Part shown: positions 1,239-5,164 of the stretch, piece by piece
Position numbering within the stretch: the first letter of the stretch is position 1
Layout: every line of letters starts with the position of its first letter
NCBI GenBank assembly: GCA_943325005.2
Contig: CALPNT020000010.1
Coordinates: forward strand, 1-33,352
Direction: 5' to 3'
Length of the DNA stretch: 33,352 nt
Source of the DNA: Bifidobacterium breve
Lineage (GTDB): Bacteria; Cyanobacteriota; Cyanobacteriia; PCC-6307; Cyanobiaceae
The notes under the pieces: generated by a model
Database searches by the model: none
Seen by the model: the letters and a program-made list of their open reading frames with translations, nothing else
Told to the model about the DNA's origin: nothing
Translations under genes and position numbers: made by a program

Positions 1239-2543
1239 GTGCTCAGTTCCCGTCCAGACCTGCCCATCAGGACGTGGCCACGATGGCAACACGGCCAGCG
1301 CGCCTGCCGTGCCTGCGGCCTGCTGCTGCTGCTGGCCCTGGGGGGCTGCCAGTCCGTGCCGCTGCTGCGTCGCCAGACCCTCCATGTGATGCTCTCCCTC
1401 AGTCCAGGCATGGAGTGGCTGGAGGCGGATTACCGCGGCGGTGGGTCCTGGGAGCCGTTGCTGCGCTCGTTCCGGCGCGTCCATCCCGAGGTGCGGGTGC
1501 AGTTCAGCCTGGTGGCGGAGGCCGACCTGGCCGAGGAGCTGCAGCACTCCCATCGCCGGGGACTGGGTCCTGACCTGTTGCTGGTGCGGGCGCCGGTGGC
1601 GATGGACCTGCTGCAACAGGGTCTGGTGATTCCCTTGCCCCAGACGGCGGAGCTGCAGGCCAGCCTGGCCACGCTCGAATCCCGGGCTCTGCACGCTGTC
1701 GAAACTCCCCACGGCCTGGCCGGTCTGCCGGTGTTCAGCGAGCCCAGCCTCGCCTGCTACGACCGCCAGCGGATCCCAGAGCCCCCGGCCACGACCGAGG
1801 CCCTGCTGGCCCTGGCGGCCGGAGGCCAACCGATCGGCCTGGCCGTCGATCCGGTCGGGCTGTGGTGGAGCGTCGGGGCCCTGGGGGCCCGCCAGGCTCT
1901 GGCTCCGCTGCTGACGGGGCTGAAGGCGCCTGCTCAGGACCAGGCTGCCGATCGACAGGCGATCCTGGGCTGGTTGTACTGGCTGCGCCAGGCCTCCCAG
2001 CAGAGCCGGGTCGATCTGGCGGCCGGGCCGGAGGAGCTGACCCAGGGACTGGAGTCTGGGCGGCTGGCCTGGATTCCCTGTTTCAGCATCGCGATTCCCC
2101 GGCTGGAGCGAACCATGGGCCAGCGTCTTGGCGTCGCCACCTTGCCGGCCGGTCCTGGTGGCCCCCCCAGCCCCTTCAATACCCTGCGCGTCTGGGCCTT
2201 CGGTGCCGACTCTTCCGGTCAGCAGCGCCGGTTTGCCATGGATCTGGCCCGTTTCACCCTTGACCCCGGCGTGCAGCGCAGCTTCGCCCTCAGAAACCAG
2301 ATCCTGGTGCCCGCCAACCGCTACGCCCCGATTCCGGTGGCCAGTTCCGGCCGGCTGGCGACCCTGGCGAAAGCCCAGCAGCAGGCTCTCCTGCTGGCCC
2401 CGATCCGTGAGCCCTCCTTCACTTCGGCCCGCATCCGCCGGATTCTGCCGCGGGTCGAAGGCGTGATGGATCAGGTGATGGAAGGGGTGCTCACCCCTGT
2501 GCAAGGCACCGAGGTGTTGCTGAAGCTGGAGGGTGAACCTTGA
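1239..2543 (+). CDS. Family 1-like extracellular solute-binding lipoprotein (ABC-type sugar-binding protein fold)
   Basis: Lipobox LLLLLALGGC; SBP-like features (GQPIGLAVDPVGLWWSVGALG, TQGLESGRLAWIPCFSIAI, LGVATLPAGPGGPPSPFNTLRVWAFGADS). GTG start is uncertain. Confidence 0.8.
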   Translation: MLSSRPDLPIRTWPRWQHGQRACRACGLLLLLALGGCQSVPLLRRQTLHVMLSLSPGMEWLEADYRGGGSWEPLLRSFRRVHPEVRVQFSLVAEADLAEELQHSHRRGLGPDLLLVRAPVAMDLLQQGLVIPLPQTAELQASLATLESRALHAVETPHGLAGLPVFSEPSLACYDRQRIPEPPATTEALLALAAGGQPIGLAVDPVGLWWSVGALGARQALAPLLTGLKAPAQDQAADRQAILGWLYWLRQASQQSRVDLAAGPEELTQGLESGRLAWIPCFSIAIPRLERTMGQRLGVATLPAGPGGPPSPFNTLRVWAFGADSSGQQRRFAMDLARFTLDPGVQRSFALRNQILVPANRYAPIPVASSGRLATLAKAQQQALLLAPIREPSFTSARIRRILPRVEGVMDQVMEGVLTPVQGTEVLLKLEGEP

Positions 2544-3730
2544 TGGGGCTGCTGCTGAATGTGGTGCTGGCCTGGCTGGCCTTTCTGCATCGGCCGTTCG
2601 TGCTCGAACAGCTGCTGCTCTCCGGCGGCTGGCTGCTGGTGGTGCTGCAGCTGCGGCGCCACTGGTTGCCGGCGCGGCGTCTGCCCCGCGGCCTGTTGCC
2701 GCTGGTCGGTCTGGCGACGCTGGCCCTGCTGCTGAACCTGACCGGTCGGCGCTACGGCCTGGTGCTGCTGGCCGCCCAGGTCAGCCTGGGCTGGTTGCTG
2801 CTGGGTCTGCTGGAGCGGCAGGTCCTGCGGCCCCGTCTGCCGGCGGTTCAATACCAGCTCCTGGTCAGTCGCCTGCTGCGGCCCTGCTTCTTCACCGTGG
2901 TGCTGCTGCAGCTGCTGCAGGCCTTGGGCAGTGTCATGGATCTGGCCAGCCTGCCCCTGGGGATCTGGTTCGGCAGTGCCATCAACCTCGGTGATCTGTC
3001 CCAGGTTCTCGCCCTGCTCTATCTGCTGCTGGTGGGCATGCCCCTGCCCTCGGCCTGGCTGAGCGCACTGCTCAAGCATGCTCTGAGCCTCAGTGAGGGC
3101 AGCCGCCGCGCCCTCGATCAGATCCTGCAGTACACCATCGTGGCGCTCGGTCTGATCTGGGCGTTGCAGCGGCTCGGCATCAACCAGACCGGGCTGCTCG
3201 CCATCGCCGGCGGCTTTTCGGTGGGTCTGGGTTTCGGCATCAAGGAGGTGTTCTCCAACATCGTCAGTGGCCTCTGGCTGCTGATCGAAGGATCGGTGCG
3301 ACCCGGTGAGGTGCTGATCCACGACGGCGAAGCCTGTGAGGTGCGCCGGCTCGGACCGCGGGCCACCACCCTCTGGCGCAGCAGTGACAACGCCGAGCTG
3401 GTGGTGCCCAACCAGACCTTCTTCACCACGTCGACCACCACTTACACCCACACCGATCGACTGCGGCGCTGCACGATCAACCTGGCCGTGGGTCGCCGCT
3501 GGCCGCCGGAGCAGATCGTGGCGTTGCTGGAGGCGATCGCCGCTTCACTGCAGGAGGTGCTCGCCGAGCCTCCGCCCCTGGCGCGCCTGCAGGAGTTCGG
3601 CCTCGAAACGTATCGCTACAGCCTCACCGTTGCCGTCAACGATCCCCTGCGGGCAGGGGCCGTGAGTGCGGCGTTGCGCCTGGCGATCTGCCGGGGCTTT
3701 GCCGATCAGGGGGTGGATCCGCCCTGCTGA
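2543..3730 (+). CDS. MscS-family mechanosensitive ion channel
   Basis: MscS core LLAIAGGFSVGLGFGIKEVFSNIVSGLWLLIEGSVRPGEVLIHDGEACEVRRLGPRATTLWRSSDNAELVVPNQTFF, preceded by hydrophobic helices. ATG overlaps the upstream stop (TGATG). Confidence 0.9.
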   Translation: MGLLLNVVLAWLAFLHRPFVLEQLLLSGGWLLVVLQLRRHWLPARRLPRGLLPLVGLATLALLLNLTGRRYGLVLLAAQVSLGWLLLGLLERQVLRPRLPAVQYQLLVSRLLRPCFFTVVLLQLLQALGSVMDLASLPLGIWFGSAINLGDLSQVLALLYLLLVGMPLPSAWLSALLKHALSLSEGSRRALDQILQYTIVALGLIWALQRLGINQTGLLAIAGGFSVGLGFGIKEVFSNIVSGLWLLIEGSVRPGEVLIHDGEACEVRRLGPRATTLWRSSDNAELVVPNQTFFTTSTTTYTHTDRLRRCTINLAVGRRWPPEQIVALLEAIAASLQEVLAEPPPLARLQEFGLETYRYSLTVAVNDPLRAGAVSAALRLAICRGFADQGVDPPC

Positions 3731-3797: not shown

Positions 3798-4973
3798 TCA
3801 GCCTGGGGCTGCGGTCTGCAGCTGGGCCAGCAGCCGGCGGAACTCCCGTTCCTGGCCCAGCACCCGGGCCTCCTCCAGGGCACTGGGCAGCAGCAGGGCC
3901 AGCTCGGGCGAAAGGTGGCCGGTCGGTTCGGGTTCCGCCGCCGCCAGTTGCCGGAAGCGCCGCAGCGCCGAAACCGGTCGCAGTAGCAGGCAGGTGAGCA
4001 GAGCCAGGCCGCAGCCCATGGTGTAGTCGATCCAGCGGCTGGGGACGTACCAGTCCGTAAGCGCGCCGTAGCCGACGAAGGTGACACCACTGGAAATCAA
4101 GGCGGTGCGCAGATGGGCCACCAGGCCGAAAGCCAGCATCAAGGCGGTGGTGCCGCCCATCACCAGAGCCACCGCCACACTGTTCACCCCCATGGTGTTG
4201 AACACCAGCCAGGGCATCAGCACCCCCAGGCTGACCCCGACCATGCGATCCCTCACCCGGTTCAAGGTGGCGCCGAGGCTGTCATTGAGCAGCAACACCA
4301 CACCGAAGTAGAGGTACTTGGGGTTCACGGCGCCGAGCCCGAGGCCCACGCTCAGAGCCAGGCTCGAAACCACCAGCTTGCGCCAGAAAAACGGGTCGCT
4401 GAAGCGAACGGCGAGGCTGCGGGCGGGCATGGGCACCTCCGCTTCCGGCCGGCCCGCAGCCTCGCCCGGCAGCCGCAGAGCCGCCTGAACGGCGGTGCCC
4501 ACCGCCAGGCCGATGCACACCGCCAGCAGCTGCTGCCAGGCGCCCAGCCAGGTGGCATTGGCATTGAGCAGGGGCAGCACCGCCAGCACCGCCAACAGGT
4601 TGCGCACCAACAGGAGTTTGTCGGGCAGGGCCTGGCCGAGGATCTGGGCGCAGGCCGTGACCACGGCGAACTGCCACACCGCTGGGGCCTCCAGCAGCGG
4701 TTTCAGCACCGTGCCCAACGCCAGTCCGATCACCACGACCAGCGGCAGCAGCACGAACACCGCCGGTGGCCAGCGATCAAACCGGGGACGCACGATCAGG
4801 GCCGCCACCACGACGCCGTAGGCGGTGGCCCCACCCAGGCCAAAGCTGTTGCAGATCGCCCAGGTGAGGGCACTGGCGAGGGCGATGACCACCATCAGCC
4901 GCAGGGCCAGCGTCGGCTCACTCGCCTGGTGGTCCGATTCCCCCGGCCGGCCGGTTTCGGCTGGGCTGCTCAA
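3798..4973 (-). CDS. FUSC-family membrane protein (aromatic-acid exporter / AaeB-like)
   Basis: Two hydrophobic blocks of FUSC type (LALRLMVVIALASALTWAICNSFGLGGATAYGVVVAALIVRPRF... and KLVVSSLALSVGLGLGAVNPKYLYFGVVLLLNDSLGATLNRVRDRMVGVSLG). ORF track extends to 5123, but a TTG at 4973..4971 overlaps the upstream stop (TTGA), so that start is preferred. Confidence 0.8.
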   Translation of the reverse strand: MSSPAETGRPGESDHQASEPTLALRLMVVIALASALTWAICNSFGLGGATAYGVVVAALIVRPRFDRWPPAVFVLLPLVVVIGLALGTVLKPLLEAPAVWQFAVVTACAQILGQALPDKLLLVRNLLAVLAVLPLLNANATWLGAWQQLLAVCIGLAVGTAVQAALRLPGEAAGRPEAEVPMPARSLAVRFSDPFFWRKLVVSSLALSVGLGLGAVNPKYLYFGVVLLLNDSLGATLNRVRDRMVGVSLGVLMPWLVFNTMGVNSVAVALVMGGTTALMLAFGLVAHLRTALISSGVTFVGYGALTDWYVPSRWIDYTMGCGLALLTCLLLRPVSALRRFRQLAAAEPEPTGHLSPELALLLPSALEEARVLGQEREFRRLLAQLQTAAPG

Positions 4974-5164
4974 GGGCGGCGCGCCTGGCTCTGCAGCAGC
5001 CCCACCAGCAGGCTGATCAACAACAGAGCCAGCCAGAACCACAGCCGTGGCGGTTCGGTGCGGCTGCAGAGCAGCAGCAGCACCAGGCTCACCCAGGGCC
5101 AGGGCTGCAGCCATGGGGCCCACAGGGCCTGACGCCGTTGACGGCTGAGCATGGGGAACTTCAT
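4970..5164 (-). CDS. Small 64-aa membrane protein between HlyD and FUSC genes (AaeX-like position)
   Basis: MKFPMLSRQRRQALWAPWLQPWPWVSLVLLLLCSRTEPPRLWFWLALLLISLLVGLLQSQARRP; two hydrophobic segments; ATGA overlap with HlyD stop. Confidence 0.6.
   Translation of the reverse strand: MKFPMLSRQRRQALWAPWLQPWPWVSLVLLLLCSRTEPPRLWFWLALLLISLLVGLLQSQARRP

Follow-up and report, generated by a model that had tools for sequence, protein, structure and literature searches.

What does a solute-binding protein do when the gene that follows it encodes a mechanosensitive channel and not a part of an importer? Mechanosensitive channels have been seen mainly as valves that answer to membrane tension, and binding proteins, for the most part, as importer components; the locus presented here joins the two. 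It lies within a stretch of 33,352 nucleotides of cyanobacterial DNA (the window) on the contig C10. On the forward strand, positions 1239..2543 (stop included) encode a solute-binding lipoprotein (SBP) of MalE type, 434 amino acids long, with a GTG start, a TGA stop and a signal peptide that runs to Cys37. Positions 2543..3730 of the same strand (stop included) encode a channel of the MscS superfamily with an MscK-like pore, 395 amino acids long, which begins with ATG and ends with TGA. Read from the sequence, the stop codon of the one overlaps the start codon of the other in TGATG (2541..2545, forward strand), and translation of the two genes is presumably coupled through this overlap. A gene for a FUSC_2-type membrane protein on the reverse strand (window 3798-5123) converges on the pair.

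An earlier note on the window had described this gene order, its coordinates and the overlap, all of which are correct on re-reading the open reading frames. It had also reported that the window holds no ABC permease or ATPase, and this is upheld for the whole of contig C10, where a Pfam domain search returned neither a BPD_transp_1 permease (PF00528) nor an ABC_tran ATPase (PF00005). Such a pair, the note proposed, might be a ligand-sensing channel module.

Precedents exist for the parts of this idea: bacterial Cys-loop channels with binding proteins for its principle (PMC549065), and MscK for dual gating. The Cys-loop (ART-LGIC) channels follow the same design, in which the gene for a binding protein adjoins the channel gene or is fused with it (PMC549065), although they are unrelated pentamers with a ligand-binding domain of their own, whereas the channel of the window has the tension-gated MscS-type fold. 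MscK (KefA) of Escherichia coli requires both tension and external K+ to open, and its periplasmic gating ring, attached to the membrane domain via an amphipathic helix, dilates on opening (PMC9653487). Our search of the open-access literature returned no report of an SBP-MscS unit, which leaves room for one elsewhere.

The binding protein and the channel

The signal peptide of the SBP ends in the lipobox LGGC37. Against the Pfam family SBP_bac_1 the protein scores 21.1 bits (E 3.4e-4), under the curated cut-off of 26, and its relative at locus L175 passes that cut-off. A profile built from 44 SBPs of the family matches MalE-type structures, among them MalE1 of Thermotoga maritima at E 8e-28. 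The AlphaFold model of the window SBP (pLDDT 89.6, pTM 0.85), when searched with Foldseek, matched MalE and GacH at E about 1e-18 with TM scores of 0.62-0.68. By family profile and model together, the SBP is clearly predicted to have the two-lobe MalE-type fold. The core motifs of this fold (GPDL, YNK/PP, W210, LP and PVN) are retained across phyla. In the family alignment the positions corresponding to the maltose contacts of MalE vary. The label of a sugar-binding type, which the earlier note had given the protein, therefore holds for the fold and does not extend to the maltose-contact positions. The candidate pocket positions are likewise variable across the family, which would be compatible with ligands that differ between members and, equally, with a pocket that has been lost. 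Compared with the MalE-type (SBP_bac_1) proteins of ABC importers, the window SBP shares fold, profile and lipobox, but differs in having a near-invariant channel partner in place of a neighbouring ABC partner, and in its maltose-contact positions. It is also not MsBP (CK_1342), the orphan sugar-phosphate SBP of marine Synechococcus, which is likewise picocyanobacterial and without adjacent ABC genes but is a different SBP whose gene adjoins mreBCD and not a channel (PMC8938411). As a side detail, Cys173 and Cys281 are both present in 105 of the 108 full alignment rows and both lost in the other three, and the idea of a disulfide between them was set aside.

In the channel, all three Pfam domains of the MscS fold (MS_channel_1st, PF21088; MS_channel_2nd, PF00924; MS_channel_3rd, PF21082) score above their cut-offs. 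The best NCBIfam match is the MscK-like PRK11281 (E 1.2e-34), with 119 bits where the whole-protein cut-off is 991. The profile of the channel family finds MscK (E 1.5e-62) and MscM as its best matches in the PDB, over the inner membrane helices and the cytoplasmic part. The AlphaFold model (pLDDT 89.7, pTM 0.60) predicts a short N-terminal helix (residues 2-15) and seven longer membrane helices, followed by the MscS beta and C-terminal alpha/beta domains. Because of the number of helices counted backward from the MscS pore helix, the N-terminus would face the periplasm. The likeness to MscK thus covers the aligned pore, beta and C-terminal domains, the extra outer membrane helices and the periplasmic N-terminal side. 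The difference is that MscK carries its own covalent helical periplasmic domain of about 500 residues and 11 membrane helices, whereas the 395-residue chain of the window lacks that domain, has about 7 membrane helices, and is accompanied by a separate MalE-type SBP.

Conservation and descent of the pair

The earlier note had proposed genome neighbourhoods as the check on its reading, and in these the pairing proved to be conserved. A second SBP-channel pair stands in the same gene order on contig C31 of the same genome. SBP homologues were found in 24 of 40 sampled relatives, all 24 of the same genus; at every genus locus with downstream sequence (29/29) the channel is the next gene, and in 28 of these 29 the two genes overlap as TGATG or ATGA. 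Across the class, matches to the SBP at E <= 1e-3 come from 64 of 390 genomes, and by our count about 49 of these genomes match strongly; the channel lies directly downstream at 48 of 48 testable cyanobacterial loci. Fifty loci had been fetched, the two remaining being one locus cut by a contig end.

In the reverse direction, contigs were scanned with the channel alone and 80 loci were kept. SBP sequence lies directly upstream of the channel in 79 of them, and the eightieth (L192) ends at a contig end. Among the 79, the SBP is broken in L154 and L202, and L139 keeps only its C-terminal tail; in this last case (L139:3817-4947) unrelated sequence replaces all but the last ~35 residues, through recombination or as an assembly chimera. 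The pairs found in this way include those of Synechocystis salina, Microcystis, Planktothrix, Crocosphaera and Synechococcus WH7803, which has two, and outside the cyanobacteria six loci of Chloroflexota and one of Acidimicrobiales. Among 199 genomes sampled from the class of one Chloroflexota member, 18 gave strong matches, and among Acidimicrobiia 1 of 148 did so. When eight whole genomes were examined, all 12 channels that match the full profile were SBP-paired and the core-only MscS channels were unpaired, one of the latter being the third gene of a WH7803 operon. Two fuller relatives, L218 and L224, are unpaired and lack the R-x5-Q motif described below.

The SBP and channel genes are both under purifying selection (dN/dS well below 1). 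Since the adjacency is found again in essentially every relative and both genes are so constrained, it is not due to chance, and it is nearly certain that SBP and channel form a conserved module. Their histories run in parallel: across 44 pairs, the pairwise distances between SBPs follow those between channels (r = 0.89), and 2000 permutations reached at most 0.22. Among five paralogous pairs within a single Xenococcus genome the correlation is r = 0.97, which species history does not explain; SBP and channel are thus duplicated, and diverge, together. In genome G022 a second copy of the pair (L118:4848-5937) is degraded in both genes; in genome G308 (L112:4955-7558) the SBP is frameshifted and the channel intact, which counts against reading the two as one complex. 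The paired SBPs form a clade separate from the sampled cyanobacterial SBPs that do not adjoin an MscS gene (SH-aLRT 93). The nearest non-channel relatives in the sample are the orphan cyanobacterial SBPs of L119-L122, mostly with no visible adjoining ABC permease or ATPase.

Helix 1 and the R-x5-Q motif

At two loci from two GTDB families, L099 and L101, the open reading frame of the SBP continues with an amphipathic segment and a membrane helix (..LRRPIILVQIVLF..), which, judged by eye, resemble the N-terminus of paired channels and carry the motif R-x5-Q. The channel frame at these loci starts in another frame and without helix 1, the first 53-73 model columns being missing. Because the SBP frame has gained a helix with R-x5-Q and the channel frame has lost it, helix 1 appears to have moved from the channel onto the SBP. 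The conserved pairing, and members (L099 and L101) in which the binding protein is covalently joined to a helix of the channel, are what a ligand-gated channel complex would be expected to show, and SBP and channel very likely form a physical complex. No full one-chain fusion of SBP and MscS was found among the loci examined; a long frame in genome G393 that might have been one runs antisense over a valS-like gene and is open by chance.

The motif stands at the start of helix 1, in the window as R17-x5-Q23 (RPFVLEQ, codons at 2591..2611, forward strand). It is present in all 117 SBP-paired channels tested and in one of 17 unpaired MscS channels, there at a non-homologous position. In a further comparison 26 channels were examined, 25 loci of the Chloroflexota-class sample and in addition L214 of Acidimicrobiales; 16 are SBP-paired and all carry R-x5-Q (two after correction of the start), and none of the 10 unpaired channels has it at that place. 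Two changes of the pairing label suffice on the channel tree, and motif and SBP presence changed once or twice. With so few changes, the association of motif and pairing reflects shared ancestry and not many independent events.

How the pair may work

The SBP probably serves an MscK-like channel as its ligand-sensing subunit in the periplasm, and a solute would thereby tune the gating of the channel by tension. The lipoprotein would be anchored on the outer face of the inner membrane, with its MalE-type domain as the sensor, and the channel would be a heptameric, MscK-like MscS. The SBP may dock on the periplasmic N-terminal helix and helix 1 of the channel, in the region of R-x5-Q, a place that would correspond to where the covalent periplasmic gating ring of MscK joins the membrane domain, so that the SBP would play the part of this ring in trans. 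Binding of a solute would close the lobes of the SBP and shift the membrane tension needed for opening, and the release of cell solutes would then depend on both turgor and the external solute. Of the ligand-sensing module proposed in the earlier note, the conserved SBP-channel unit without an ABC transporter now stands, and the idea is strengthened by co-duplication, by the fusion of the SBP to the first transmembrane helix and by R-x5-Q; that a ligand gates the channel is still what we infer, and such control is likely. As to the ligand, the results lend no support to glucosylglycerol or sucrose, which the earlier note had offered as examples.

Other readings of the pair deserve weight. The channel might be an ordinary tension valve, coupled to the SBP by co-expression only, with the SBP catching leaked solute for a remote ABC permease. 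SBPs may indeed serve remote or shared permeases (PMC8938411), and the genome of the window has about 20 BPD permease matches elsewhere. At one WH7803 locus (L187:276-3409) a double BPD permease and an ATPase with an AAA-associated domain lie directly upstream of one pair. This is the only case among the loci examined in which importer genes adjoin the pair, and this permease and ATPase are absent from the same island in other marine Synechococcus. A motif screen placed an ABC ATPase-like frame near 4 of 109 pair loci, L187 among them. The earlier note had reckoned with orthologues that consistently keep an ABC permease; across the 109 loci there is no constant ABC neighbour, and a remote ABC partner was rejected as a rule. 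A physical link, beyond co-expression, is indicated by the fusion of helix 1, by the tandem SBPs described below and by a motif that is peculiar to the paired channels, and the paired SBPs stand apart from the sampled cyanobacterial SBPs without a channel, all of which makes recapture an unlikely explanation.

It is about equally doubtful that the SBP fold has lost ligand binding and sets the tension threshold as a ring, cap or wall tether in the periplasm. The variable maltose-contact positions would suit such a structural subunit, as would the constant attachment of the SBP to the membrane, through a lipobox or, in some members, an N-terminal helix, and the ring of MscK is itself a bundle of helices in which no solute pocket is known (PMC9653487). 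Against this stand the MalE-type core motifs kept across phyla, and chains with up to three SBP domains, which suggest that several ligands are sensed. A further reading would have the SBP pass its ligand on to the channel, so that the ligand enters passively with the help of a binding protein. Ligand delivery by SBPs is familiar from ABC and TRAP systems, an MscS-type pore is wide when open, and the pore here is MscK-like. However, MscS pores are weakly selective and shut at rest, opening them for uptake would dissipate gradients, and no energy coupling is visible, so that a solute conduit is highly improbable.

If the solute-tuned channel complex is the right reading, the conservation of the pair across many cyanobacteria and some Chloroflexota suggests pressure valves controlled by an outside solute, and a unit so widely conserved would give bacteria valves of this kind. 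There is perhaps an even chance that these pairs represent a hitherto undescribed class of two-component mechanosensitive channels, found in Cyanobacteria, Chloroflexota and Acidimicrobiia, in which a detachable periplasmic sensor of MalE type makes an osmotic release valve answer to a specific external solute, and which has diversified by duplicating both the pair and the sensor domain. For structural studies, the pair is a natural counterpart of the MscK gating ring that comes in two pieces. It also assigns a function to one group of orphan binding proteins in ecologically major cyanobacteria, in which annotation usually places proteins of this sort under sugar uptake.

The module varies in its parts. 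In Chloroflexota, tandem SBP domains precede the channel, two in L174:2170-4677 and L176:2050-4680 and three in L175:1130-4939. In L095, L098 and L104 the SBP has an N-terminal membrane helix instead of a lipobox. No general third partner gene was found, and in marine Synechococcus the pair is often joined by a second, weaker MscS gene: the island of these strains (L177, L178, L182, L187, L198, L200 and L114) holds several SBP-MscS pairs with a valS-like gene nearby, and the third gene after the pair encodes a second, smaller MscS channel. The channels of L099:6265-8010 and L101:6259-8034 carry a globin domain at the C-terminus (PF00042, E 2e-16 and 6e-17), and a haem- or oxygen-linked channel is possible there.
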